IMG/VR virus record: IMGVR_UViG_3300031857_000344
Location: 1-46,641 of that record
DNA length: 46,641 nt
Origin: a virus
Direction: 5' to 3' (one strand)
The translations under genes and the position numbers were made by a program. Below are positions 2,742 through 17,599 of this stretch, piece after piece (positions within the stretch are counted from its first letter, which is position 1; each line of letters opens with the position of its first letter). The notes beneath the pieces were generated by a model. The model made no database searches and had not been told where the DNA came from. It worked only from the letters and a program-made list of their open reading frames with translations.

Positions 2742-3021
2742 GCAGCCGACAGACGTAACCGAAATCCTCGAAGAGCGCGGAAGCCGGTATGGTCCGTTCC
2801 TTACCCACGCCATGATTACGCAGATGCTCAAGGGGGTGGCGAACACGTACCTGACGCAGCACGATAAGACGCTCATGCCAGACCAGCAGGAAGCCCTCGA
2901 CATGATCTTCCACAAGATCGGGCGCATCATCAACGGTGATCCCGACTACGCTGATAGCTGGATCGACATCGCGGGCTACGCCAAGCTGGTGGCCGACCGG
3001 CTGGAGGGTGTCGTGCGATGA
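2734..3021 (+). CDS. DUF6378-like phage protein (95 aa)
   Basis: The start at 2734 (MSEQPTD) overlaps the preceding stop by 8 bases; an upstream in-frame start would lie within the previous gene. The sequence has the pattern ILEERGSRYGPF, then EALDMIFHKIGRIINGDP and DSWIDIAGYAKLV, which I recall as typical of the phage family DUF6378. This family is small, helical and common beside phage nucleotide and DNA metabolism genes, with no proven activity that I know of. It shares ATGA with the nuclease gene downstream, so the two are likely made together. The family name is from memory and should be checked by a profile search. Confidence 0.8.
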   Translation: MSEQPTDVTEILEERGSRYGPFLTHAMITQMLKGVANTYLTQHDKTLMPDQQEALDMIFHKIGRIINGDPDYADSWIDIAGYAKLVADRLEGVVR

Positions 3022-3689
3022 CCGCTTGGTCCTACTCTAGCATCAAGACCTTCGACCAGTGTCCGAAGAAGTACTTCCACCTCAAGGTGGCAAAGGACGT
3101 CAAGGACGAGGGGAACGAGGCGTCGATCTACGGCAACGATGCGCACGAGGCGGCAGAGCATTACATCAAGCACGGTACCCCGATCCCCGACAAGTACGCC
3201 ATCATGCGGCCTGTCGTGGAGACGCTGGCCAAGTTCCCCGGCACCAAGCACACCGAGTTGAAGCTGGGTGTCCGTAAGACGGAGGATGGCTTCGAGCCAT
3301 GCGACTTCTTCGACAAGGATGTCTGGTACCGGGGCATCGTCGATCTGCTGATTACCGATGGGTGGAACGCCCACATGATCGACTACAAGACTGGGAAGAA
3401 CGCCAAGTACGCCGACATGAAGCAGCTAGACCTGATGGCCGGGGCGGTGTTCGTGCACTTCCCCGAAGTCCTGCGGGTCAAGTCGGGGCTGGCCTATGTG
3501 GTCAGCAACGAGTTCTTGAAGAAGACGCACGTGCGGACCGAGTTGTCGCAGTACATGGGCGTCTTCGACCGCCAGTTGGGGCAGCTAGAGGACGCCATGC
3601 AGGCGGGGGTGTTCAACGCCAAGTCCGGCCCTTTGTGTGGCTGGTGCCCTGTGGTACAATGTGAACACCACAGGCCGAGGAGGAAGTAG
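3018..3689 (+). CDS. PD-(D/E)XK nuclease of the Cas4/RecB type with Fe-S cysteines (223 aa)
   Basis: This is a DNA nuclease of the RecB/Cas4 exonuclease group. The core is complete: His43 (NDAHEAAEHY), Asp109 (GIVDLL), Asp122 and Lys124 (MIDYKTGK) and Gln136 (KQLDLMAG). Four cysteines are placed as in Cas4 and AddB proteins that hold a 4Fe-4S cluster: Cys15 near the N-terminus and Cys207, Cys210 and Cys215 near the C-terminus. Length is normal for single-domain Cas4-like enzymes. No CRISPR array or cas gene is nearby, so a role in phage recombination, replication ends or host DNA breakdown is more likely. The start overlaps the previous stop (ATGA). The last codons overlap a predicted promoter and inverted repeat. 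Confidence 0.92.
   Translation: MTAWSYSSIKTFDQCPKKYFHLKVAKDVKDEGNEASIYGNDAHEAAEHYIKHGTPIPDKYAIMRPVVETLAKFPGTKHTELKLGVRKTEDGFEPCDFFDKDVWYRGIVDLLITDGWNAHMIDYKTGKNAKYADMKQLDLMAGAVFVHFPEVLRVKSGLAYVVSNEFLKKTHVRTELSQYMGVFDRQLGQLEDAMQAGVFNAKSGPLCGWCPVVQCEHHRPRRK
3633..3674 (+). promoter_or_regulatory. Predicted promoter with inverted repeat centred just past the -10 box
   Basis: TTGTGT (3633-3638), a 16-base spacer and TACAAT (3655-3660) preceded by TGG form an extended -10 sigma70-type promoter. A perfect 8-base inverted repeat (CCTGTGGT 3648-3655, ACCACAGG 3667-3674) is centred at 3661. It lies at the end of the nuclease gene, before the gene at 3689. The same spacing and dyad position recur at 5534-5576. 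Prediction only. Confidence 0.5.
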
Positions 3690-3991
3690 TGCCATACAAA
3701 GACCCCAAGGACCGCAACTACAAGCGGGAGTACGAGACCTACCAAGGCAAGCCCGACCAGATCAAGAAGCGGGCGCAGCGCAACGCTGCCCGTGCCAAGC
3801 TGATGAAGGCCGGGAAGGTCCGTAAGGGGGATGGCAAGGACGTTGCCCATGTGAAGGCCATCGACAAGGGCGGCTCGATCAAGGACGGGCTGCGCGTCGA
3901 GAGCGCATCGGCCAACCGCTCGTTCAAGCGGGATAGCAAGAGGAACCTCGTTTCCGAGTTGAGCAGCCGGGAACGCAAAAGGAAGAAGTGA
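3689..3991 (+). CDS. Small very basic protein, possibly a degenerate HNH endonuclease (100 aa)
   Basis: The GTG start at 3689 overlaps the nuclease stop (TAGTG) behind a good ribosome site (gaggaggaag). The protein is dominated by Lys and Arg. DVAHVKAIDKGG followed by DGLRVESASANRSF resembles the end of small phage HNH proteins, in which a paired His motif is followed by Asn-rich and Leu-Arg positions. Here only one histidine of the usual pair is present, so catalytic activity is doubtful. It could instead be a simple DNA-binding protein. Its stop overlaps the helicase start (TGATG), placing it firmly in the DNA-processing operon. Identification as HNH is tentative. Confidence 0.8.
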   Translation: MPYKDPKDRNYKREYETYQGKPDQIKKRAQRNAARAKLMKAGKVRKGDGKDVAHVKAIDKGGSIKDGLRVESASANRSFKRDSKRNLVSELSSRERKRKK

Positions 3992-5550
3992 TGCAGATCA
4001 TTGACGATAAGGTGCTACTCGTCAGGACACCCAACCCCAACCCGATCACCAGCCAGATCAAGAAGTCGCGGGTGCTGGAGACCCACAAGGGCATCTCCAA
4101 GGTGGCGATCCACTGGGGGATGAAGGAAGCCCGGATGCTGGCGGCGATGAAGGCACCCAACGTGCCCTCACCCATCCTGCGCGACTACCAGTGGACCGGG
4201 CGGCTCACGCCGTTCGAACACCAGAAGACCACCGCCTCCTTCCTCACGCTGCACGACCGGGCGTTCTGCTTCAACGAGCAGGGCACCGGCAAGACCGCCA
4301 GTGTGATCTGGGCAGCGGACTACCTGATGAAGCGCGGCGAAGTGAAGCGCGTCCTGATCCTTTGCCCCTTGTCTATTATGGACAGCGCGTGGCGGCAGGA
4401 CCTGTTCAAGTTCGCCATGCACCGCTCGTGCAGCGTGGCACACGGGACCGCCAAGCAGCGGGCCAAGATCATCGCCGCAGGCTCCGAGTTCGTCGCGATC
4501 AACTTCGACGGGCTGGCCGTGGTCGAGGACGAGATCATCAACGGGGGCTTCGACCTGATCGTGGTGGACGAGGCCAACGCCTACAAGAACCCCACCACCA
4601 ACCGCTGGAAGGTGCTGAACCGCATCGTGCAGGCTACCGACCCGCGCCTATGGATGCTTACTGGTACGCCAGCAGCACAAAGCCCGGTGGACGCGTTTGG
4701 TCTGGCGAAGCTGGTCAACCCCAACTGCCCGAAGTACTTCACCCACTTCCGCGACAGCGTGATGTTCAAGGTGACCCAGTTCAAATGGGCACCGCGCCCG
4801 AACGCCGAGCAGACCGTCCACAAGGTGCTGCAACCGGCGATCCGGTTCGAGAAGAAGGACTGCCTCGATCTACCCGAGGTCACGCACTCCGAGCGCGAAG
4901 CGCCGCTGACCAAGCAGCAGATGGCCTACTACCGTATGCTCAAGAGCGAGATGCTGTTCGAGGCCGGTGGCGAAGAGGTCAGCGCGGTCAACGCAGCGAC
5001 GAAGCTGAACAAGCTGCTCCAGATCAGCGGGGGTGCGGTCTATTCGGACGATGGCGCGGTCATCGAGTTCGACGTCAGCAACCGGCTCAACGTGGTGCTG
5101 GAGGTCATCGAGGAGGCCAGCAACAAGGTGCTGGTGTTCGTGCCCTTCACCCACACCATCGAACTACTGCGCGCCAAGCTGGAGAAGGAGGGCATCTCGT
5201 GCGACGTCATCAACGGCAAGGTACCGGTGCATCGGCGCGGTGAGATTGTCACCGAGTTCCAGACCAAGAAAGACCCGCACGTGCTGCTGATCCAGCCGCA
5301 AGCGGCATCGCATGGCCTTACCCTTACGGCAGCAGACACAATCATCTGGTACGCCCCGGTGACGAGCGTGGAGACCTACCTACAGGCGAACGCCCGGATC
5401 AACCGACCGGGGCAGAAGAACGCGATGTCGATCATCCACATTCGGGGTAGCGACGTAGAGGCAAAGCTCTACCATATGCTCCAGTCGAACATCACCAACC
5501 ACGAAAAAATTATCGACCTCTACCGACAGATAATTGCTTCTGGTACTTGA
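3991..5550 (+). CDS. SNF2-type superfamily 2 helicase/translocase (519 aa)
   Basis: An ATP-driven DNA translocase. The RecA-like lobes show Walker A NEQGTGKT (residues about 95-102), Walker B VVDEAN (191-196, with Asn where DEAH is usual), motif III MLTGTP, and motif VI QANARINRPGQ (about 465-475) with the arginine fingers, all in SNF2 order. Length suits the compact phage members of the family, without accessory domains. I chose the ATG at 3991, which overlaps the preceding stop (TGATG), over a GTG one codon earlier. Phage SNF2 proteins are often found beside a RecB-like nuclease, as here, which suggests joint action in recombination or replication fork repair. The gene is followed by a promoter-bearing gap. 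Confidence 0.93.
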   Translation: MQIIDDKVLLVRTPNPNPITSQIKKSRVLETHKGISKVAIHWGMKEARMLAAMKAPNVPSPILRDYQWTGRLTPFEHQKTTASFLTLHDRAFCFNEQGTGKTASVIWAADYLMKRGEVKRVLILCPLSIMDSAWRQDLFKFAMHRSCSVAHGTAKQRAKIIAAGSEFVAINFDGLAVVEDEIINGGFDLIVVDEANAYKNPTTNRWKVLNRIVQATDPRLWMLTGTPAAQSPVDAFGLAKLVNPNCPKYFTHFRDSVMFKVTQFKWAPRPNAEQTVHKVLQPAIRFEKKDCLDLPEVTHSEREAPLTKQQMAYYRMLKSEMLFEAGGEEVSAVNAATKLNKLLQISGGAVYSDDGAVIEFDVSNRLNVVLEVIEEASNKVLVFVPFTHTIELLRAKLEKEGISCDVINGKVPVHRRGEIVTEFQTKKDPHVLLIQPQAASHGLTLTAADTIIWYAPVTSVETYLQANARINRPGQKNAMSIIHIRGSDVEAKLYHMLQSNITNHEKIIDLYRQIIASGT

Positions 5551-5576
5551 CACTGTAAAATGTTAAGTTAGTGTCA
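5534..5576 (+). promoter_or_regulatory. Predicted promoter with inverted repeat, twin of the one at 3633
   Basis: TTGCTT (5534-5539), a 16-base spacer and TAAAAT (5556-5561) form a sigma70-like promoter at the junction of the helicase gene and the gap before 5597. A perfect 7-base inverted repeat, TGACACT (5548-5554) and AGTGTCA (5570-5576), is centred at 5562. The dyad sits 3.5 bases past the middle of the -10 box, exactly as at 3633-3674, and both -10 boxes continue with GTkAA. Prediction only. Confidence 0.5.
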
Positions 5577-5596
5577 GGATACCGAAAGGAGCAAAC

Positions 5597-6010
5597 ATGA
5601 GTACAGCACCCGTAGAACTCCCCGTCGATGAACTCGTGCGCGTCTACCGGCGCATCCGCGAGACCATCGAGACCCGCGAGGAGGCATTCAAAGCCGAGGT
5701 CGGCACGTTGAAGGAGCAGCTTGACGCAGTGGGTAACGCCCTGCTCGAAGCCTGCAACCGCAACAGCGCCGACAGCATCAAGACGAAGCACGGCACCATC
5801 ACCCGTAGGGTAACGCAGCGGTACTGGACGACCGACTGGGATACGCTCTACAAGTTCATTCGAGAGAACGATGCGCCCTTCCTTCTGGAGCAGCGCATCC
5901 ACAATGGGAACATGAAGCAGTTTTTGGAGGAGAACCCCGAGGCGTTCCCGGCGGGCCTCCAGTGTGATCGCAAGTATGCGGTCACCGTTCGCAAACCAAC
6001 CGGCAAGTAA
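5597..6010 (+). CDS. Unknown helical protein, possibly Gam-like (137 aa)
   Basis: The first gene after the 5534-5576 promoter, with the ribosome site aaaggag before its ATG. Residues 10-55 form a long charged helix (ETIETREEAFKAEVGTLKEQL). The rest reads as a small mixed domain: GTITRRVTQRYWTTDW, then NMKQFLEENPEAFPAGL and a closing strand YAVTVRKP. A long helix followed by a domain ending in a strand recalls Mu Gam-type nuclease inhibitors, which coat DNA ends against host exonucleases. The resemblance is in general plan only and may be chance. It lies directly before the SSB-like gene, which fits a DNA-end or single-strand role. Function should be treated as unknown. Confidence 0.8.
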   Translation: MSTAPVELPVDELVRVYRRIRETIETREEAFKAEVGTLKEQLDAVGNALLEACNRNSADSIKTKHGTITRRVTQRYWTTDWDTLYKFIRENDAPFLLEQRIHNGNMKQFLEENPEAFPAGLQCDRKYAVTVRKPTGK

Positions 6011-6021
6011 GGACCACGATA

Positions 6022-6966
6022 ATGAGCAATCTTACCATCTTCAAACAGAGCAATGCGGTCTCTACCGCTACGCGGCGCGGTGCAACGGCGCTGGGGCAGT
6101 CGCTGGCTTCGGCCACGACCATGCGCCGCATCGCCACCAACACCAACGGCACCTTCAAGCGGATCGTCAACGGTGAGCAGATCGGCAACGCCGTGCGCGG
6201 TGAACTGAACGTCATCATCGTCGATGCACTGCCCAAGGTCAGCCGCACCTTCTACGCTGGTGCCTACGATCCCAACGCGAAGCCGACCCTGCCCGACTGC
6301 TGGTCGAACCTTGGCGACAAGCCGGAGGCCAATGTGCCGAACGCGCAGGCCAAGAACTGCGCCGACTGCAAGCAGAACATCAAGGGGTCCGGGGCCAACG
6401 GTGGCCGTGCATGCCGCTTCCAGCGCCGCATTGCCGTGCTGGTCGAGGGTGACCCGACCGGCGAGGTCTACCAGTTCAACGTGCCCGCCAAGAGCCTGTT
6501 CGGCAAGGGCACCGGCAACGTCCATCCGTTCGAAAGCTATGTGAAGTACCTACTGGCCAACGGCGAAAGCCCGGACACCGTGGTGACCAACATCAGCTAC
6601 GACCTCAACGCCGACAGCATGGAACTGCTGTTCACCCCGCTGCGCGGGATCGACGATGCCGAGTACGAACTGGTTGTCGCGGCACAGAACGACCCGGACA
6701 CCAAGAAGTACGTGCAGCTTACCGTTGCGCAAGCAGACGGTGTGACCGCGAAGCCCAAGGCCGAAGCCCCCGCCGCTAACACTGTTAGCCGTTCGGACGA
6801 GCCGGACGACGAGGAAGAGGCCCCGGCCAAGATCGAGGAAGCCGAGTTCGAAGAGATCGACCAGCCGACCGTGCGCCCGGCCAAGGCAAAGCCGGAAGCC
6901 ACCGTGGAAGCCAAGGGTAACCTCGCGTCGATCATCGACGAGTGGGGCAGCGACGACGAGGGGTAA
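6022..6966 (+). CDS. Probable single-stranded DNA-binding protein with zinc site (314 aa)
   Basis: Four cysteines, Cys93 (PDCWS), Cys113 and Cys116 (NCADC) and Cys131 (RACRF), look like one zinc site, as in T4 gp32-type proteins. The N-terminal 80 residues are basic. The region from about 140 to 245 alternates beta strands (FNVPAKSLFGKGTGNVHPF, YELVVAAQ). From about 250 the chain becomes low in complexity and very acidic, ending IIDEWGSDDEG. Acidic tails are the usual contact point of phage and bacterial SSBs for partner enzymes. Place in the operon, between a Gam-like gene and the primase-helicase, supports the call. The assignment rests on overall plan and context, not a recognised domain. 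Confidence 0.75.
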   Translation: MSNLTIFKQSNAVSTATRRGATALGQSLASATTMRRIATNTNGTFKRIVNGEQIGNAVRGELNVIIVDALPKVSRTFYAGAYDPNAKPTLPDCWSNLGDKPEANVPNAQAKNCADCKQNIKGSGANGGRACRFQRRIAVLVEGDPTGEVYQFNVPAKSLFGKGTGNVHPFESYVKYLLANGESPDTVVTNISYDLNADSMELLFTPLRGIDDAEYELVVAAQNDPDTKKYVQLTVAQADGVTAKPKAEAPAANTVSRSDEPDDEEEAPAKIEEAEFEEIDQPTVRPAKAKPEATVEAKGNLASIIDEWGSDDEG

Positions 6967-6970
6967 ACTG

Positions 6971-7201
6971 GTGAGCCAAGGCTACAGCCTTCGCCTTCGT
7001 GATCTCAACCGCAGGGCATCCGGCAAGCTGCTGGGTGTCCAGTTGGGGCGGGTGTGCATCAAGCATGATGTCCCCGCCTCCGTGGTTGCGGGTCAGATGG
7101 GTGTGTCGCGGCAGACGGTCTACAACTGGTTCCGGGGGACATCGAACCCCAGTCCTAACCTGACCGGTAGGATCGAACGCTACATCGCGTCCCTTAGCTA
7201 A
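6971..7201 (+). CDS. Small helix-turn-helix DNA-binding protein (76 aa)
   Basis: The GTG start follows the SSB gene by four bases with gaggggta as ribosome site. Residues about 35-56 (VVAGQMGVSRQTVYNWFRG) form a clear Cro/CI (XRE) type helix-turn-helix, with the turn at GVSRQTVYNW. The whole protein is just this domain plus a short basic N-terminus. No repressor-type dimer or cleavage domain is present, so it is Cro-like in size. It is the only obvious sequence-specific regulator in the window, and so the natural candidate to bind the inverted repeats at 3648-3674 and 5548-5576, one of which lies in front of its own operon. That link is inference. Confidence 0.88.
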   Translation: MSQGYSLRLRDLNRRASGKLLGVQLGRVCIKHDVPASVVAGQMGVSRQTVYNWFRGTSNPSPNLTGRIERYIASLS

Positions 7202-7260
7202 GGCGAGGTCGCACAACCAAGAACAAAGGAAGCGGGGGTAACGCCCTGCCATTGGGGGCT

Positions 7261-10167
7261 ATGACCAATTTTGACCTCTTAGATACAGTGCAGCCAGCCG
7301 GTGGGTGGTATGCAGTGGTCGGTATCAAAGGGGCCGGTGCAAATGTTCAGCGTCAACAACATCTCGTGGAGACCCGCGCAGAACTTGACGCTCTCTCCTC
7401 CCGTCTGGTGCAGGGCGGGTGGAACGTGTTTTTCGGTGTCGCCAAGTACAAGGACGACAGCAGCCGGAAGAAGAGCAACGTGCTGGCGCTCAAGGCGTTC
7501 TGGCTAGATATTGACTGCGGCCCGACCAAAGCAGCGGTGAACGAGAAGACCGGGCGACCGGGCGGCTACATCGACCAAGCTACGGGCCTAACCGCGCTCA
7601 AGACGTTCTGCACCCACATCGGCCTGCCGAGACCGACCATCGTCAACTCGGGGCGCGGCCTGCATGTGTACTGGCCGTTGACGGGCGATGTCACGCCGGA
7701 ACAGTGGGAGCCGGTGGCAGCAAGGTTGCGCGACCTGTGCATGACGCACGACCTCTACGTGGACCCGGTGGTCTTCGAAACGGCGCGCATCCTGCGCATT
7801 CCCGGTACACTCAACTTCAAAGACACTCCTCCTACGCAAGTATCGGTAGTAGCTGTAGGAAAGCCCACAGACTTTTCCACTCTGGTCGGCATCCTCGGGG
7901 TGAAGGCCCAACCTGCCGCCATCCCGTTCGCACCGAGTGGGCGCATCACCGCGCTGGGCAGGCTGATGCAGGACAGCATGAGCAAGTCCTTCGCCAAGAT
8001 CATGCGGCGGTCGGCCAAGGGTGACGGGTGCGCGCAGCTTCTCGACTGCTACCAGAACCGGGACAGCCTGTCGGAAGGCCGCTGGTTCGACGCGCTCTCG
8101 GTGGCCAAGTTCTGCTCCGATAGGGACAAGGCGATCCACAAGCTGTCGGAGGGGCACCCCGACTACGACCCGAACAAGACGGTCCAGAAGATCGCTCACA
8201 TCGAGGGACCGCACAACTGCGCGACCTTCGACCGCAACAACCCCGGCCTGTGTGCGTCATGCCCGCACTTCGGGAAGATCAAGAACCCCATCGTGCTGGG
8301 CATGGAGGTCAAGGCAGCGAACGAGGACGAGTACGCCAAGGCGCAGTTCGTCAACGAGGAGACCGGCGAGATCGAGGTGGTGGAGATACCACCGTACCCG
8401 CATCCCTTCTACTGGGGCGAGAAGGGCGGCATCTGGCGCAAGCCGATCAAGAAGGGCGGCGACGAGGACGAGGAAGCAGCACCGCTGTTTGTGTACCCTC
8501 GGCACCTCTACGTGGTGAAGCGCATGCGTGATCCGGTCGAGAAGGGCGTGGTGGTCATGCGGCTGCACACCCCGAACGATGGCATCCGGGAGTTCACCAT
8601 CCCCCAGACCAAACTAAGCGACAAGGGCGAACTGCGGAAGGCGTTGTCGGGCGAAGACGTCCTGTGCAGCCTCAAGCAGTACGACCTCATTCACGAGTAC
8701 ATCATCGCAGCAACGAACGTATTACAGGAAGAAGGAAAGGCGGAACTCATGCGGACCCAATTTGGCTGGGCGGACAACGACAGCAAGTTCATCATCGGGG
8801 ATAGGGAGATCACGGCAGATGGCGTGTTCTACAGCCCGCCCTCGTCGGTCACCGAAGCCATCGCGGAACACATGGGCGCGGTGGGCGACTACAAGAAATG
8901 GCAGGAGGTCTTCAACCTCTACGGCACACCGGGGTTGGAAGCCCATGCGTTCGCTGCGCTGACCGCCTTCGGTGCACCCCTGCTCAAGTTCACCGGCCAG
9001 TCGGGTGCCGCGATCAACGTGATCCACCCCCACTCGGGTACCGGCAAGACCACCATCCTGCACATGTGCAACTCGGTCTGGGGCCACCCCCGCGACCTTT
9101 GCTCGACACAGAAGGACACCGACAACGCTCGTATCCTCAAGCTGGGCATCCACAACAACCTGCCCTACTGCGTGGACGAGATCACCAACATGTCGGGCAT
9201 CGCTTTCTCGGACCTGATCTACGCCATGTCGAACGGCAAGGGGAAGGACCGCATGGAGGCCAGCGGCAACAGGCTGCGGGCCAACAACACCAAGTGGCAG
9301 ACCATCTCCCTCATGTCGTCGAACGCCTCGTTCTACGAGAAGCTGACCGGGCCGAAGACCACCCCCGATGGCGAGATGATGCGCATGGTCGAGTACAAGA
9401 TCGACTACACGGATGTCCTCGACGTCAACGTGGCGAAGAGCATGTTCGACCACCAGTTGATGGAAAACTACGGCCATGCCGGGGCGATCTATGCTGACTG
9501 GCTTGTACGTAACAAAGAAGAGGCAGAGGCCACCGCCCGCTCGATCCAAGCCAAGATCGACCGCGAACTCAAGCTGACCCAGCGCGAACGCTTCTGGTCG
9601 GCACTGGTGGCGTCCAACATCACGGGCGGACTGATCGCGACCAAGTACCTCAAGATCATGAACTGGGACATGCAGCGCATCTACGAGTGGGCGACCAAGC
9701 TGATCCTCGCGCTGCGCGAAGATGTGAAGCCCCCGGTTACCGACACCGCCAGCATCATCGGTGACTACCTGAACCGGCACATGCAGAACGTCCTCGTGGT
9801 GGACGACAACGCGGACCTGCGGACCAACATGGCACTGCTGCCGAAGATGGAGCCGAAGGGCGAACTGCTGATCCGCTACGAGCCGGACACCAAGAAGCTG
9901 TTCATCGCCGCGAAGCCGTTCAAGCAGGACTGCGCCTCGACGCAGGTGAACTACAAAGAGACGCTGGAAGCATTGAAGAAGAACGGCGTGTTCCTCGGCA
10001 CGGTCGTGAAGCGGCTGTCGAAGGGCATGAAGGTGGTCACCCCCGGTGTCTACTGCCTCGTGTTCGACACTTCGGCTGGTGGGTTCCTCGACATGGGCGA
10101 GATCGTGGGTGTGACCGACGAAGCGGCACCGAGTGCGGACGAAGCCGATGCTGGTGGAGGGAGTTAA
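7261..10167 (+). CDS. Primase-helicase fusion: AEP-like primase plus DUF927-like helicase (968 aa)
   Basis: A replication protein expected to unwind DNA and lay primers. The N-terminal 190 residues carry the archaeo-eukaryotic primase pattern: FWLDIDCG with Asp83 and Asp85, NSGRGLHVYW (about 129-138) and ARILRIPGTLNF (175-186). A zinc knuckle follows with His318, Cys320, Cys331 and Cys334. The C-terminal half is an ATPase of the DUF927/D5-like type with Walker A HPHSGTGKTT (about 589-598) and CVDEITN as the likely Walker B. The end is a winged-helix-like region with a polar tail. I chose the ATG at 7261 over a TTG three codons upstream. It is the only primase or replicative helicase seen. Confidence 0.9.
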   Translation: MTNFDLLDTVQPAGGWYAVVGIKGAGANVQRQQHLVETRAELDALSSRLVQGGWNVFFGVAKYKDDSSRKKSNVLALKAFWLDIDCGPTKAAVNEKTGRPGGYIDQATGLTALKTFCTHIGLPRPTIVNSGRGLHVYWPLTGDVTPEQWEPVAARLRDLCMTHDLYVDPVVFETARILRIPGTLNFKDTPPTQVSVVAVGKPTDFSTLVGILGVKAQPAAIPFAPSGRITALGRLMQDSMSKSFAKIMRRSAKGDGCAQLLDCYQNRDSLSEGRWFDALSVAKFCSDRDKAIHKLSEGHPDYDPNKTVQKIAHIEGPHNCATFDRNNPGLCASCPHFGKIKNPIVLGMEVKAANEDEYAKAQFVNEETGEIEVVEIPPYPHPFYWGEKGGIWRKPIKKGGDEDEEAAPLFVYPRHLYVVKRMRDPVEKGVVVMRLHTPNDGIREFTIPQTKLSDKGELRKALSGEDVLCSLKQYDLIHEYIIAATNVLQEEGKAELMRTQFGWADNDSKFIIGDREITADGVFYSPPSSVTEAIAEHMGAVGDYKKWQEVFNLYGTPGLEAHAFAALTAFGAPLLKFTGQSGAAINVIHPHSGTGKTTILHMCNSVWGHPRDLCSTQKDTDNARILKLGIHNNLPYCVDEITNMSGIAFSDLIYAMSNGKGKDRMEASGNRLRANNTKWQTISLMSSNASFYEKLTGPKTTPDGEMMRMVEYKIDYTDVLDVNVAKSMFDHQLMENYGHAGAIYADWLVRNKEEAEATARSIQAKIDRELKLTQRERFWSALVASNITGGLIATKYLKIMNWDMQRIYEWATKLILALREDVKPPVTDTASIIGDYLNRHMQNVLVVDDNADLRTNMALLPKMEPKGELLIRYEPDTKKLFIAAKPFKQDCASTQVNYKETLEALKKNGVFLGTVVKRLSKGMKVVTPGVYCLVFDTSAGGFLDMGEIVGVTDEAAPSADEADAGGGS

Positions 10168-10387: not shown

Positions 10388-10430
10388 AAACGGCCCTCGG
10401 TCTGCACCACCGGGGGCCGTTTTTTATTCG
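10388..10430 (+). terminator. Intrinsic terminator between the converging operons
   Basis: A 13-pair stem (10388-10400 with 10411-10423, one G-U pair) with a 10-base loop is followed by a T run. It ends the rightward operon. The T run also carries the stop codon of the leftward giant gene (10424-10426). On the other strand the stem is followed only by TTTGG, so it may slow leftward transcription less well. Confidence 0.85.
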
Positions 10431-13400
10431 CCCTCCCTGCGCTCCTTCTTGACCTCGTTGAAGAGGCGGTTGAACGCCTTGTACACCTCGTTGGTGTCGG
10501 CGTAGTACTCCTCCCTGCTCTCGTAGAGACCGTCCTGATAATCCCGCCGCAGTGCCTTGAGTTCGCTCGATGCAACGTTGTAGGCGTCGATGATGCGCTC
10601 GTCGGTCTGCAGGGGGTATTTCTCCTCCAGTTCGGCCCAAGTCGCCTCGTCGAAATCCTCGTCGTTATAGATGGCGTACAACTCGTCCATGTCGGGCTTG
10701 CTGGTGAGACCGAAGCTCTTGTTGGTGTTCTTGTAGTACTGGTTCATCGGGGCGAACTCGCCGCCCTTACCCACGAACGACTTCACGAACGGCAGGCGCT
10801 GGGTGAGGGTCTGCCCCTCACGGCCTTCGGTAGTTGCGAGGTTCACCGCATCGCGGCCCACCCCATAAAGACCGCCAAGGTACTGCTCGGTGATGTATCG
10901 GTACTGCTCCGGCTGCAGATCGAGCCAGCCCGAAGTAGAGGAGGTGCCGCCCCGCGCTGCGTTCAACCCCCGCGCAATCATCTTCCAGCCCGCCCCGGTG
11001 TCCTCGCGCCCCAGTTCCGACCGGGGGGTCGTCTGATAACCCTGCTTGGTGTAGATCGGGGAGCCGAAGAAGTTACGGTTGGCGATAAGGTCCGCGAACG
11101 GTTGGATGGGGTCGGGGGCCAGTTCTGCTAGTGTGGTAGGCGCACCCTCGCCGCTATCGGCCTTGATCGGAGAAGCCATGTTGATGAAGGCGCTCATGAT
11201 GTTGGTGCCCGCTTCGGTCGCACTGATGTCCCCGATAGAGGCAGCGGTGATCTGCCCGCCGACATAGTTGAAGTAGGCCATGCTGAACGCCACCGGGATA
11301 GTCACGTAGTCGTTGGTCTTCTCGCCGTAGCGCAAGACGATCCGTGACTGGGCAGTCGCGTTGTTGACGTCCAAGATGTTCGGACGACCATCCTCGTCAT
11401 CGTCACCACCCATGACGAAGCGATTGAACAGGTAGAGCAGCCCACCCATCACAACGGTCTTGGTGAACAGCTTACGGGCAAGCGTACCATACCGGCCTTG
11501 GTTAATCAGCTTGCGCGCACCCTCCTTCGACGGGCTAAGGAAGAAGAACCACATGTCGAGGAACGGTGCCCATTCGCCGCGCCGGGTGAGGTTGAGCGAG
11601 CTATCCAGCGCCAGCGACGCGGCATCATCCCGGCTAACCCCTGCTTCGATAGCAGCACGGTAGGTAGCGAAGCGCGCCTGCAAGTCGATGACTTGGGAAG
11701 CGGTGTCCATTGCATCGAGTAGGGCACGACCACCAACCATCGCTGCCGCAACCGGGTTACCCTTCTTGGCCTCTGCATACCGCTTGATGTCGCGCACGGT
11801 ATCTTCGGCCATCGTCTCGGCGTCCATGATGTTGGAGTGGCCGACAGCGCCCCCGTCTTCGAGGAACTGATCGAAGAGCAGCGTGAGATGTTCTCCTTCC
11901 GCAGTATCCGGCCCCTTACCCCGCAAGCGGTGCGCCAGCATCGGCGCGGTAACGGTCTTGAGGATGGCCCGCGCCTCCTTGGTACCCCCAAGGTACCGAG
12001 CAATGACGTCCATACCTTCGAGCGAAGCAATGTACCGTGCACTCTTGGCGGCAATCGCCTTACCCTCGCCGGGACCGCCCTTCATACCCTTGGCGGCGTA
12101 ATTGGTAATGATCGCTTCGGAAAAGTCGCGCATCCACGCAGCGGTGCCGAGGTAGACCGGGTTGTAGCGGGTCTTGAACGACTTGATGGTGTTGCTGATC
12201 GACTGGATGCCTTGGAAGAACGCATGGAGTTGCGGCGGCGTCATATTGGCAAAAGCGCGCTCCATCGCCACCCCAGCCGGGGTGCGGGTGAAGTCGAGGA
12301 AGTAGGTCTCCCCATTCTTCTTAACGACGAACAGTTCGCCGTTGCGGGCGCGCTCGTTCATCGCCGTCAGCGCATTCGTGGATAGCAGCGTAGTGGCTGG
12401 GTGCTTTACGGTCGAGTAGACCTTCACAATATCCTTGTGCGAGACGGGATCACCCAGCACGTTATCGAGGAAGGTACGACCCACCTTGTTGCGTTCGATC
12501 CGGGCAATGGCGAACTGGGCATCCGTCATCAGGTTGAACAGCGGGTTGAACGGGACGCTCTCACGCCCACGAGCCTTGATGTACTCCTGTATCTTGACGC
12601 CCTTGCGGTTCTTCCGAGCCTCGGCACGGACGCTCTCGGAGTGGACATCCGGGTCACCGTCCACCTGCATATCGCCTTCGAGCGCGTACCCCTTGAGCGG
12701 GGTGTAGAACGGCTGCTCTTTCCGCAGGGCATCGCGCTGCGACTTCGACAGCAATCCAGCCCGGACCTTCTCGTTGAGCATGTAGTCTACGAGCTTGTCG
12801 TGCAGCTTCGCTACCTGTTGCAGCTTAGGAGTAAGCCCGCTGACGGCATAGTGGTCGAGAACAGCTTGAGCCTCGGCGTCCGTCATACCGGAACCGTCGA
12901 ACACATCCTCGGAAGTCTTACGGACTAGGGCGTTGCGACCCTTGGCGCTGCGCGCCCAAAGGTACATGCCGATGTCCTGCGGATCGAGGTTCAGCTTGTC
13001 GATCAGGTCGCGCAGCGGGGCGAGGTAGGTATGCTCCAACCGCATCTGGTTGCCGATTTTGCGGCTCTCCAGCAGTTCGAACTTCCGCGCTACGTTCATA
13101 TCGTCGGGCAGCTTGGTCACCCCGTAGGATGCCGCCAGCGCCTTGGAGTAGTTTGTCGCGTCCCGATACTTGTCGTCGATCCCACGACCGAGCTTGTCGT
13201 AGAGCTTCTTCAGCTTTTCCTTCGTGTTGGCGGCGAAGCCGATGCTCTCGACACGGGGGCGCGACAGGTTAGCCGGGAACAGGTTCTCGATGGTGCCGGG
13301 GGTCGCCTGCAGGGCTTCCTCCACTGGGCGCACATCTTCATCCGGGTTGAGGCTCGGTGCGTCGATCCGATTACGAGCAGCCTGCATCGGCTGCTCTTCG

Positions 13401-16400
13401 GTAGCGACTTCGCCCTTGGCGGGCTGGAACCCGTACTCGGCAGCGAACTTGTCCTTGTACTCCTCCAGCTTCGCCAGCAGGTCTTCGGGTGAAGCGCGCT
13501 TGTTCTCTGCCGCCTGCTTGAGCAGCCGGTACGCCCTCTCGTCGATCTCCTGCGGCTTGCCTTCTTCGGGGTAGGCAGCGAACGCACCTTCGATCTCGTC
13601 GAGGACGTCCTCGTAGGTCAGTTCTTCCTGCTGCTCCTGCACCTCGAACGGGGTGAGGTCGAGGTCCGTGGTGGTCTTCTCGATGAACTTCTTGAAGGTC
13701 TCGGTCGGCAGGTACCGCTGGGCGCGGACAGCCTTGTAGAAGCTGTGCAGTGCACGGGCGAGGCGCGAGAAGAACTTGTCAACGACCGTCAACGGCTTCG
13801 CATCAGACACGGCCCAACGGGCAGTCTGGTCGGCATACCACTCGCTGAATGAGGTCCAATAGGCGGGCACACGCTCCACCGGGGTGTCGAGAGCGCCCTT
13901 GACGTTCCGACCCGCGATGCGGCTGCGGAGAGACAGCACGAGGTCACGGGCCTTTTTGCCCCGCTGGCTCAGGAGCCACTTCTCATATTCTGCCAGTATG
14001 GCCTTGCGCTCTTCGGGCGTAGCTTGCCGGAAGGCTTCAACCTCGTGGATGTGCCCCATCTCGTGCGCGATGACTTCGAGTGTCTTGGACACGTTCGGTC
14101 CCGATTGGAACAGCACGTAATGCTCACCGGGGCCAATCGGCTGCGTGATACCGCTGATGTCCGGCTGCGTCGCTGCCATCCCGATCCGGCGATGTTCGCC
14201 GGTAAAGTTACGGGTATTCTCTTTGGCGTTTTCGACGGTCGAGAAGTACAGCTTCGTGTCGGGTAGGATCAGCTTCTTCCAGCCGCGCAGAATGCCCTGC
14301 ATCCTCGGATCAATGTCGGGTGAGAAGGCAATGCCCTCTGCATCGTACTGGACGAACGGCTCGGACGCATGCCGGTCTTGGGCTTCCTGCTCCAACCGGT
14401 CCCGCTCACTGGTGAGGAGCGCCTTCGCCCCCGGCGACAAGAGCCGCCCCTTGTAGGAAGTGATGTCGGTGTTGCCCAGCACGCCGCCCCGGAAGGGAAG
14501 GTACATCACCTTGCCGTTATTGGGGTTGTTGGTGCGGATCAGGCCGGTATTGCCCTCTTGGAACACCACCTCACCCAACGGCACCGTCTGGGCCAGTGCT
14601 TCGGCATCGGCACGCTGCGCATCAGTCGCGCTCGGCGGGGGCGGCGCGGGCTGTACCGGCTCTGCCACTTCGACCGGGCTGCCTTCGGCTTCTACGGGTA
14701 CGTCAGCAGGTGCAACTTCTTCTGGTACCGGTGCTTCGGCAACGGGAGCTTCGGCAACAGGCGCTTCCGGCGCAGGCATCTCCGGCACCGGGATGTCCGC
14801 CATCGGGTTTTCGGGCACTTCTTCCGGTTCGGGCTGTGAGAAGAAGCTAAGGTCCTCCTCGGTGATGTCCTCGTCGGGCTGCGAGAAGAAGCTAAGGTCT
14901 TCCTCCTCGACAACGGGCTGTGCGCGCCCTTCACGCTGTGCCAGCTTGTCTTCCGGCGTCGGGATCAGGCTCTCGATTTCGGCGGCATCGCCGCGCAGGA
15001 CCGCCATCTCCTGCTCGTTGGGACCGTCCCAACCATTCTTGTCGGCCAGACCGATGAACGCCCGGTACTTGTCCTTGACCGCCGGGTTCTTAACAATCCG
15101 TGTGAAGGCGATGTCGCGCTTCTTGGCGATCTTGGCCTGCTCGGCGTCCAACTTGGCCTGCTCGGCATCGGCCTGCGCCTGCTCGGCGTCGAGACGCTTC
15201 TGGTACTCACCTTCCGACCCGAACACTGCCTCGGCAGTCTCATAGCCGTAGACGGTGCCCAGTTCACGAGCGTTGATCGGCTTGAACTTCTTCTTCCGCA
15301 GCTTGGTGTTGATGCGGTCAATCTTGGCATCCATCGGGATGCGGTCGTCGTACAGGACGCGCTCCACGATGTTCATGCGGTCGATCTGGATGTCGCGCCG
15401 TGCAGCGTCCTTCGCCTGTCCTGCTGCAGTCTCCCGGTCGGACTGGTCGCGCATGTAGTCGCGCAGGATGGTGGTCTCTTCGACGTTGGGCGAGAAGCCG
15501 TGCATCGACATCAGATCGTCGAACACGGTGAACTTATCGACCACCGGGGCGTCGAGTGTCTGCTGCAGGATTTCGGCGCGCTTCGCACGCTCGGCCTGCT
15601 GCGACTGTGCCTGCTCTGCGATCTCCTGCGCGATGTCGGGCTGCGCAGCGGGGGCTGCGGTCTCGACCTGCGGGGGCGCGGTCAGAAACTCAAGGTACTC
15701 GTTGTTGACCTTCTGGGCCTCGTCCAGCACCAGCATGCGGGCGATCTTGGTCTCTTCGGGCAGCTTGGCCCGCTTGAGCTTGCCTTGCTCCTTCTTGAGA
15801 AAGCCTTCGACCTCATCCGTGTTGGTCGTCGCCATCGCGTTGGTGAGGCGCGTATTGACGTTGCGAATGTAGGTGGACAGCCCTTCGTCAATGTCGGCGT
15901 TTTCACCCAGAGCCAGCGTAAGGCGCTCGTTGACTGCAGCCTTGGAGAAGGTCTCGGGGATCGGGACCGCACCAACACCTTCGGTCGGCACACGCATGCG
16001 GTTCAGATCATCGACCGTCATGCGGGTCAGGGTGCCATCGGCACGGCGAATGGGGACAAGCCCTTCCGCGTCGGGCACACCGATGACGTCCACACGTTCG
16101 CGCCCAACCTGCGTCGGGTCTTCACGGTTCGGGATCGCCAGTTCGAACGAGGCCACCGGGCGCTGCGCCGACATCTCGACCGCCTTCTGGCGGTTGGCAG
16201 CAGCACGCTCACCCAGCACGCTGGCGATTTCGGTGGTGCTACGGACCCCGCCACCGACGATACCACCAACCAGTGCAGCGCGGCCAACGCCTTCAAACGG
16301 ATCGCGCTCCTCGTCATACAGACCACGAGCAATCAGGTTGGAGCCAAGCTGGACCCCGCTTTCCTGTAGGGCTTCTTCCGCCCCACGCATGCCGATCCGA

Positions 16401-17599
16401 CCCGGCGCGGTCTTTTCGATGTTGGTGAGGGTACGGGCAACAGCCTGCCCGATCTCGGTGGGATCGACCTTGCCTGCCGTCCCGCGCCGAATGGTGTTGG
16501 TGACAGCCTCAAGTGCGGCACCGCGCTTGGCGACCGGAATGCCTTCAAAGATGCGGTTGGCAACACCTACTTCGGTAGCACCAAGACCAGCGTTGAGGAG
16601 CAGCGCCGCGAACCGGGTAGCATCCCCTACCTTCTCGCCGCTGCGGGCCTCGTACGCCCGGATGTCTTCCGACCCCTGCTGACCGCCTTGCCCGATGCCG
16701 AGACCGTACTCATAAGGCCGCGCTGCCTTGGCGATAGCCTCCGCGCGCTGCGCACCCTGCAGGTCCTTGGCTACCCCAACAGCCTTGGCGATCCGCGCCG
16801 GAGCAGCGAAGGGCAAGAGACTACCAACGCCACCGGATACGTCCGTAGCCAGTTGGGCTGTTGCGTCGTACTCAAGGGCTTCACTCGGCGCACCGAAGAC
16901 GTCCTCGCCAAACCCTTTGACTGCTTCCTGCTGCGATACCCCGAACTCCTGCAGGGTCTTACCGCCCGGTATGCCAACAGCGGACATGCCGCTACCAAGC
17001 AGTTCCGCGCCGAAACCGGGGATACCTGCAACAGCGGTCACCGCGCGGGGGAGTGCCCCCGCCGTTTCACGGACGATGCTCGCCTTGGGGACAGCCACAC
17101 CCGTCTTGGTGATCGACTGCAGTTCGTTACCAAGGGCCGCAGCTTCGGCACGGGCACGTTCGGCCCGCTGGATAAAGCCTAGAGCGCGGTCGGGGGCGTT
17201 GGGGTTCTGATACCCGCTGGTAGCCGCCTGTTTGGCCATACGGTCAAACTCTGCCGCCTGCTTGAGCAGTCGGTCACGCTGTCCGGTAATCTCACCCTGC
17301 CGGGCGCGCAGTTCCTTTGGGCTATACGCCTTGGGAGCTTCCGGCTCGTTCCCCGTAATCCAGTCGAAGAACTGGCCGATGTACCCACGCTCTTCCTTAC
17401 GCCGCTTGAGGGCAGCTTCTTGCGCAGGCGTGAGCGCGGGTTTGTCGTCCGGCTCCTTCGGCTTGGGTGGCTGCGGCTTTTCCGGCTTTATCTGCCCATC
17501 TTCATCGACGTAATACCCGCGCGGAGCGAAAATGACACTGCTGCCACCGCTCGAACCGAAGAAGCTGTTTCGGGATTTGCGCGGTCCGTAGATGGACAT
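10424..17599 (-). CDS. Giant polyvalent internal virion protein with zinc peptidase motif and LPD38-like region (2391 aa)
   Basis: Probably carried in the virion and ejected with the DNA. HEMGH at residues 1179-1183, followed by Glu1253 in SEWYAD, is a complete zinc-peptidase (gluzincin-like) site. From about 1745 to 1930 the chain matches the large polyvalent-protein domain LPD38 (NGELFVVKKNGETYFLDF, then SFKTRYNPVYLGTAAWMRDF). Residues about 160-480 are Ala/Gly-rich and hydrophobic, which fits membrane insertion; a second hydrophobic stretch is VVMGGLLYLFNRFVMGG. A duplicated acidic motif (EEDLSFFSQP twice) and a Pro-Glu linker (VPEMPAPEAPVAEAP) separate the halves. Polyvalent proteins are known to act on host targets after injection. 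Last gene of the leftward module; its ribosome site is cggag. Confidence 0.88.
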   Translation of the reverse strand: MSIYGPRKSRNSFFGSSGGSSVIFAPRGYYVDEDGQIKPEKPQPPKPKEPDDKPALTPAQEAALKRRKEERGYIGQFFDWITGNEPEAPKAYSPKELRARQGEITGQRDRLLKQAAEFDRMAKQAATSGYQNPNAPDRALGFIQRAERARAEAAALGNELQSITKTGVAVPKASIVRETAGALPRAVTAVAGIPGFGAELLGSGMSAVGIPGGKTLQEFGVSQQEAVKGFGEDVFGAPSEALEYDATAQLATDVSGGVGSLLPFAAPARIAKAVGVAKDLQGAQRAEAIAKAARPYEYGLGIGQGGQQGSEDIRAYEARSGEKVGDATRFAALLLNAGLGATEVGVANRIFEGIPVAKRGAALEAVTNTIRRGTAGKVDPTEIGQAVARTLTNIEKTAPGRIGMRGAEEALQESGVQLGSNLIARGLYDEERDPFEGVGRAALVGGIVGGGVRSTTEIASVLGERAAANRQKAVEMSAQRPVASFELAIPNREDPTQVGRERVDVIGVPDAEGLVPIRRADGTLTRMTVDDLNRMRVPTEGVGAVPIPETFSKAAVNERLTLALGENADIDEGLSTYIRNVNTRLTNAMATTNTDEVEGFLKKEQGKLKRAKLPEETKIARMLVLDEAQKVNNEYLEFLTAPPQVETAAPAAQPDIAQEIAEQAQSQQAERAKRAEILQQTLDAPVVDKFTVFDDLMSMHGFSPNVEETTILRDYMRDQSDRETAAGQAKDAARRDIQIDRMNIVERVLYDDRIPMDAKIDRINTKLRKKKFKPINARELGTVYGYETAEAVFGSEGEYQKRLDAEQAQADAEQAKLDAEQAKIAKKRDIAFTRIVKNPAVKDKYRAFIGLADKNGWDGPNEQEMAVLRGDAAEIESLIPTPEDKLAQREGRAQPVVEEEDLSFFSQPDEDITEEDLSFFSQPEPEEVPENPMADIPVPEMPAPEAPVAEAPVAEAPVPEEVAPADVPVEAEGSPVEVAEPVQPAPPPPSATDAQRADAEALAQTVPLGEVVFQEGNTGLIRTNNPNNGKVMYLPFRGGVLGNTDITSYKGRLLSPGAKALLTSERDRLEQEAQDRHASEPFVQYDAEGIAFSPDIDPRMQGILRGWKKLILPDTKLYFSTVENAKENTRNFTGEHRRIGMAATQPDISGITQPIGPGEHYVLFQSGPNVSKTLEVIAHEMGHIHEVEAFRQATPEERKAILAEYEKWLLSQRGKKARDLVLSLRSRIAGRNVKGALDTPVERVPAYWTSFSEWYADQTARWAVSDAKPLTVVDKFFSRLARALHSFYKAVRAQRYLPTETFKKFIEKTTTDLDLTPFEVQEQQEELTYEDVLDEIEGAFAAYPEEGKPQEIDERAYRLLKQAAENKRASPEDLLAKLEEYKDKFAAEYGFQPAKGEVATEEQPMQAARNRIDAPSLNPDEDVRPVEEALQATPGTIENLFPANLSRPRVESIGFAANTKEKLKKLYDKLGRGIDDKYRDATNYSKALAASYGVTKLPDDMNVARKFELLESRKIGNQMRLEHTYLAPLRDLIDKLNLDPQDIGMYLWARSAKGRNALVRKTSEDVFDGSGMTDAEAQAVLDHYAVSGLTPKLQQVAKLHDKLVDYMLNEKVRAGLLSKSQRDALRKEQPFYTPLKGYALEGDMQVDGDPDVHSESVRAEARKNRKGVKIQEYIKARGRESVPFNPLFNLMTDAQFAIARIERNKVGRTFLDNVLGDPVSHKDIVKVYSTVKHPATTLLSTNALTAMNERARNGELFVVKKNGETYFLDFTRTPAGVAMERAFANMTPPQLHAFFQGIQSISNTIKSFKTRYNPVYLGTAAWMRDFSEAIITNYAAKGMKGGPGEGKAIAAKSARYIASLEGMDVIARYLGGTKEARAILKTVTAPMLAHRLRGKGPDTAEGEHLTLLFDQFLEDGGAVGHSNIMDAETMAEDTVRDIKRYAEAKKGNPVAAAMVGGRALLDAMDTASQVIDLQARFATYRAAIEAGVSRDDAASLALDSSLNLTRRGEWAPFLDMWFFFLSPSKEGARKLINQGRYGTLARKLFTKTVVMGGLLYLFNRFVMGGDDDEDGRPNILDVNNATAQSRIVLRYGEKTNDYVTIPVAFSMAYFNYVGGQITAASIGDISATEAGTNIMSAFINMASPIKADSGEGAPTTLAELAPDPIQPFADLIANRNFFGSPIYTKQGYQTTPRSELGREDTGAGWKMIARGLNAARGGTSSTSGWLDLQPEQYRYITEQYLGGLYGVGRDAVNLATTEGREGQTLTQRLPFVKSFVGKGGEFAPMNQYYKNTNKSFGLTSKPDMDELYAIYNDEDFDEATWAELEEKYPLQTDERIIDAYNVASSELKALRRDYQDGLYESREEYYADTNEVYKAFNRLFNEVKKERREGE

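Follow-up and report, generated by a model that had tools for sequence, protein, structure and literature searches.

The IMG/VR virus record IMGVR_UViG_3300031857_000344 is a linear record of 46,641 bases, analysed here at its full length (the window), and its left end falls inside polA. We examined the junction between a helicase gene and a gam-like gene, where a sigma-70 promoter, a short dyad lying over its -35 box and a small helix-turn-helix (HTH) protein encoded in the downstream operon probably belong to one control circuit. The features at this locus, all on the plus strand, are as follows.

3018–3689: PD-(D/E)XK exonuclease gene (Pfam PDDEXK_1, E 5e-16), which contains the site at 3633 discussed below
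3988–5550: SNF2-type helicase gene, upstream of the promoter (Pfam SNF2-rel_dom and Helicase_C)
5547–5552: -35 box TTGACA of the promoter
5547–5559: short dyad TTGACNNNGTNAA, TTGAC-ACT-GTAAA, a proposed operator over the -35 box and the first spacer bases
5548–5550: TGA stop codon of the helicase gene, within the -35 box
5569–5574: -10 box TAGTGT, 16 bp from the -35 box; weak (3/6), keeping the conserved T, A and last T
5585–5591: Shine-Dalgarno sequence AAAGGAG of the gam-like gene (AAGGAG is common among relatives)
5597–6010: gam-like gene, the first of the operon (Pfam Phage_Mu_Gam, E 1e-4, under the curated cut-off; conserved order)
6022–6966: conserved gene for a protein of 314 residues (PHROG 27714 and 23155, unknown function; conserved order)
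6971–7201: gene for a 76-residue Xre/Cro-type HTH protein, the proposed repressor (Pfam HTH_3, 24.5 bits against a cut-off of 23)
7109–7135: predicted recognition helix of that protein, residues 47–55, a helix in the structural model, with the codon for N52 at 7124–7126; residue 52 covaries with dyad position 11
7252–10167: primase/helicase-like gene (DUF927), the last of the operon

For the 314-residue gene we use the label "ssb" for convenience; it belongs to no family of known function. Relatives were drawn from seven scans of viral contigs, which gave several hundred loci. The long records keep the gene order exonuclease, 100-residue gene, SNF2 helicase, gam-like gene, 314-residue gene, HTH gene and primase, so that the two promoter sites proposed in an earlier sequence-only reading of the window, one in the exonuclease gene and one at the helicase–gam junction, could be tested directly in relatives. 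A nucleotide search with the window found no near relative among named phages, and bacterial genomes, searched by pattern with the primase for possible prophages, gave no relatives. The literature mentions named relatives only incidentally, and searches of it on the control scheme described here gave no precedent.

At 116 unique helicase–gam junctions we found the conserved sequence [CT]TTGACANTGTNAAA, followed by TAnnnT. TTGACA or TTGACT occurs in nearly all of the 116 elements, the window having the sigma-70 consensus TTGACA, and TTGAC is invariant in 83 aligned elements selected by motif match. Since elements were picked by motif match within each junction, this choice has in part shaped the base frequencies at the motif itself, but neither the constant distance to the -10 box nor the flanking columns. 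TAnnnT follows after 16 bp in 69% of the elements and after 11 in 29%, with no more than 3% at any spacer of 12–15 or 17–25. When a matrix derived from the junctions was run over whole records, the sites scored 27 to 38, whereas the reversed records gave 5 to 15.5. Judged by this conservation, TTGACA-N16-TAnnnT (5547–5574 in the window) is a real and widely conserved sigma-70 early-gene promoter of an uncultivated phage group.

The helicase stop codon lies within the -35 box in the 83 unique elements as it does in the window; at other junctions the helicase ends in TAA or TAG on either side of the element, with TTGACA unchanged, and six loci have an additional gene ahead of the element. On these comparisons the element belongs to the downstream operon, whichever gene ends there. 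Extra open reading frames (ORFs) between helicase and gam occur in L015, L017, L019, L034, L039 and L042; several end inside the element, which therefore supplies their last codons. Between the promoter and gam, four loci carry tRNA-like genes (L086, 947–1024; L068, 1397–1472; L040, 5432–5509; L036, 7578–7649), of Ser, Leu, Thr and one undetermined type.

Like other phage early promoters read by host sigma-70 polymerase, the element has TTGACA, a 16-bp spacer and TAnnnT, followed by a Shine-Dalgarno sequence and the first gene; it differs in that its -35 box contains the upstream stop codon and its spacer opens with a conserved half-palindrome. The nearest named phage, Pseudomonas phage Rollin (OR577172), shares the order helicase, gam, "ssb", primase and has TTGACA-N16-TATACT at the same junction, but neither the dyad nor an HTH homologue.

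The sequence-only reading had set out a different arrangement, in which promoters of the form TTGNNT-N16-TAMAAT at 3633 and 5534 carry perfect inverted repeats of 8 and 7 bp that serve as operators. Its letters and geometry are exact. TTGTGT-N16-TACAAT stands at 3633–3660 and TTGCTT-N16-TAAAAT at 5534–5561; the repeats have arms at 3648–3655/3667–3674 (8 bp, 11-base loop) and 5548–5554/5570–5576 (7 bp, 15-base loop), both are centred exactly 3.5 bases beyond the middle of the supposed -10 box, and the cores between the arms agree at 10 of 13 bases. The resemblance is nevertheless within chance: a 33-base composite pattern, itself derived from the two sites, gave 2 matches with up to 3 mismatches where 0.67 were expected, and 18 of 100 shuffled sequences also reached 2. 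A sigma-70 consensus scan reported neither site. Perfect repeats of at least 7 bases number 43 in the window, fewer than the mean of 78 in first-order Markov sequence. It is unusual for such a repeat to enclose TAMAAT: the window has 3 seeds, which amount to these two sites, and ten simulations gave 0, in a test that was defined with the sites already seen.

In relatives this arrangement does not hold. Of 116 elements, the window's alone has the 7-bp repeat of the helicase–gam junction, and 2 have the TTGNNT box, with no other conserved box at that distance from TAAAAT (5556–5561), which we reject as the -10 box. What survives at this junction is the promoter as such, with its strongly conserved -35 box beginning 13 bases downstream of the one first named; the -35 box, -10 box and repeat originally assigned to it are not conserved as such. 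The site at 3633 fares worse, and lies wholly within coding sequence:

3633–3674, plus strand: coding end of the exonuclease gene (CGWCPVVQCEHH), where the protein motif is kept and the DNA features are not

Across 102 homologous stretches the 8-bp repeat occurs in the window and is absent from the other 101, TAMAAT occurs in 2, and 1 shows the entire promoter pattern. The site falls in the final codons of the gene, which encode GPLCGWCPVVQCEHHRPRR, and the CGWCPVVQC cysteine motif is conserved in relatives over varying DNA. This motif explains the site, which for lack of conservation we reject as a promoter. Because of these counts, the promoter call at 3633 and both inverted repeats fail the test of conservation in related phages that the sequence-only reading had itself put forward, and we give its version almost no credence. 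A geometry that is striking in one genome can thus be chance, both repeats being gone in the nearest relatives. The conserved motif, C-GW-CPVVQ-C, occupies window positions 3640–3690 at the exonuclease C-terminus, a tail that we presume to be akin to the iron-sulfur tail of some PD-(D/E)XK nucleases.

The dyad over the true -35 box has the ideal form TTGACNNNGTCAA. Among the 116 elements its pairing is kept as C-G at positions 4/8 in 114, A-T at 3/9 in 116 and T-A at 0/12 in 115, and the third pair is G-A instead of G-C in 63. Because 63 of 116 elements thus carry a mismatch within a 5-bp stem, hairpin pairing is not conserved, and a DNA or RNA hairpin was rejected as the function of the dyad. 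It overlaps the promoter of the operon that holds the HTH gene, as the operators of Xre/Cro-CI repressors do, and this small palindrome is probably recognised by the phage's own small DNA-binding protein. A different possibility is that the conserved GTNAA half is a feature of the promoter, a spacer read by polymerase or a host factor, with no phage regulator acting there. Its fixed distance from both boxes would fit this, as would the imperfect symmetry, about half of the elements having G-A at the third pair; but the GTNAA half is missing from L125, L204, Rollin and the marine HTH-less group, all of which have a -35 and a -10 box, and we hold this explanation to be very unlikely.

The 76-residue protein is modelled by AlphaFold2 as a five-helix fold with a mean pLDDT (predicted local distance difference test) of 91.8. 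Foldseek searches with the model gave weak matches to CylR2, DdrO, SinR and HipB with E-values of 0.29 and up, the CylR2 match having a TM-score of 0.59–0.67 at an E-value of 0.29. The protein is therefore predicted to have the Xre/Cro-CI fold, including the recognition helix. It is unmatched by NCBIfam models, and no relatives of it were found in 50,697 phage records. As in CylR2, SinR, DdrO and HipB, it is a small all-helical HTH protein with its recognition helix in the usual place; one difference is that no CI-type partner was seen, in a partial window that was not searched systematically for CI or integrase. Lambda Cro serves as the functional model, in that a short dyad lies over a promoter box and the gene sits inside the operon that it would control.

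Dyad and HTH gene occur together. In a first scoring of the dyad against the presence of this HTH family between gam and primase, 191 loci had both, 89 neither and 3 were discordant; later scans added 72 with both and 1 with neither (the contig of L125 again). The pooled counts of 263, 90 and 3, an agreement at 353 of 356 junctions, are not independent, because some loci share contigs. A helicase tree of 92 representatives shows two changes of HTH state, each matched by the dyad. One of these cases is nested: in L125 and L204 the HTH gene is absent, as verified in the DNA of L125, the GTNAA half is gone and TTGACA-N16-TAGACT or TTGACA-N16-TACACT is kept. Read from these sequences, gene and dyad were lost together in this lineage and the promoter was kept. 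Additional scans based on "ssb" for more HTH losses gave no new event, and the HTH-less long records are without the element.

One dyad base also covaries with a residue of the protein. We simulated dyad position 11 along the tree and compared it with 552 variable columns in four proteins. Residue 52, in the YNWF stretch of the recognition helix, is N in 71 of 88 representatives, 59 of which have A at dyad position 11; it is another residue in 17, and 15 of these lack that A. This column ranks first or second of the 552, its phi of 0.61 is the highest among the best-ranked, and its nominal p is 0.001, or 0.0008 when the tree is built from three concatenated proteins. For position 11 the HTH protein is over-represented among the best columns (rank test, p 0.009), and for position 13 its columns are in mild excess; at positions 5, 6, 7 and 10 covariation did not favour it over the other proteins.

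Both co-occurrence and covariation are blind to the sign of the effect, so the HTH protein might bind the dyad and activate the promoter or switch its timing. We regard this as quite unlikely: a dimer on a -35 box is expected to exclude polymerase, the dyad lies on a -35 box that is already at the sigma-70 consensus, and HTH-less lineages retain a promoter with the same boxes.

We sought a second copy of the element by a matrix scan of 17 long records and by direct inspection of 14. In 13 of these 14, TTGACA stands 37–53 nucleotides ahead of the VRR-nuclease gene, itself followed by polA, and 11 have the dyad as well. Since the window starts inside polA, its own second copy, if present, would lie beyond the left end. 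The proposal that two left-arm promoters share a control element therefore stands in outline for the group, with the other copy placed ahead of VRR-nuclease/polA and not at 3633.

Next to this second copy, upstream of the VRR-nuclease gene, a small ORF resembling BrnA/ribbon-helix-helix proteins is conserved (7114–7284 in L165, and in other long records). The dyad could be the operator of this protein, which would then repress or time both operons with no self-repression by the HTH protein. Of the 17 long HTH-bearing records first examined, 13 carry the ORF, as do two further ones, G031 and G032; among the HTH-less stretches examined, 0 of 7 have it. The likeness of the ORF to BrnA-type antitoxin repressors is that of a small, seemingly DNA-binding ORF beside the second element. 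It is not found wherever the dyad is, however: G003 carries the dyad at each of the two promoters, yet the ORF did not turn up in its 51,957-base record, which is possibly incomplete, and G009 has the ORF and no element at the VRR promoter. The ORF does not adjoin the gam promoter, its family call is a sequence pattern with no Pfam match for the copy tested (from G001), and the covariation signal sits in the HTH protein, a test to which the BrnA-like protein is not open. We consider this alternative unlikely but live.

The reading that we favour, and that we think probable, is that an Xre/Cro-type autorepressor turns down two replication operons through the dyad on a sigma-70 promoter; it draws on the conservation of promoter and dyad, the second copies, the co-occurrence with its one nested joint loss and the base–residue covariation. 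The host-type promoter TTGACA-N16-TAGTGT would start transcription about 12–20 bases before the gam-like gene and drive gam, the 314-residue gene, the HTH gene and the primase/helicase gene. The HTH protein, as a product of this operon, would bind the dyad as a dimer and exclude polymerase from the -35 box, so that its accumulation would turn down its own operon; through the second copy in relatives, the VRR-nuclease/polA/exonuclease/helicase operon would be turned down together with it. The steps that we infer are that the protein binds, that it does so as a dimer, that its effect is repression and not activation, and when it acts. The sequence-only reading had the 76-residue protein made from the second promoter and perhaps repressing itself. 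The promoter does head the operon of gam, 314-residue gene, HTH gene and primase, and the palindrome is tied to the HTH gene; self-repression is suggested, not demonstrated, by two independent evolutionary events and one covarying base.

Several observations weigh against this autorepressor reading. In the window the -10 box is weak and the right half of the dyad is imperfect, with one mismatch; L358 and L360 keep the HTH gene with a degraded dyad, and the second promoter has no dyad in G016, G002 and G009. From its counts, the distribution of the BrnA-like ORF nearly equals that of the dyad and the HTH gene. The HTH state has only two independent changes, so that paired contrasts cannot reach significance, and we set the HTH–dyad association aside as a statistical result. 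The covariation of residue 52 is nominal and not significant once corrected for 552 columns and several positions. Paired contrasts for it came to 2.0 concordant and 0.4 discordant. How high the noise runs can be seen at several other dyad positions, where helicase columns come out best. Because the signal is nominal and helicase columns lead elsewhere, covariation supports the reading and does not prove it.

Some members of an HTH-less group (L482, L483, L489, L367–L394) have another dyad at the helicase–gam junction, for example TTGACTAGATAACGTTTAGTCA in L368, and this points to another operator and regulator. That this sister group has TTGACTA...TAGTCA at the same place suggests that regulator and operator were replaced together.

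Cro-like autoregulated early promoters are a known kind, and the case in this uncultivated phage clade is new. It may be, at somewhat less than even chances in our view, that an undescribed family of small Xre-like phage repressors, for which no cultured representative was found, runs a two-operon replication regulon through a promoter laid over the preceding stop codon in hundreds of uncultivated phage contigs. Little is known of how uncultivated phages control their genes, and comparative genomics alone here yields a specific trio of promoter, proposed operator and candidate regulator that appears common to a large uncultivated clade. Natural variants, in which the HTH gene is lost or residue 52 is changed, offer ready-made controls.

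Downstream of the operon, the plus-strand early genes converge on the minus-strand late genes at the following feature:

10388–10422, plus strand: strong terminator-like hairpin and its T run, separating the two gene blocks

Next to it, on the minus strand at 10424–17599, the window encodes a protein of 2391 residues with an LPD38 large-polyvalent-protein domain.

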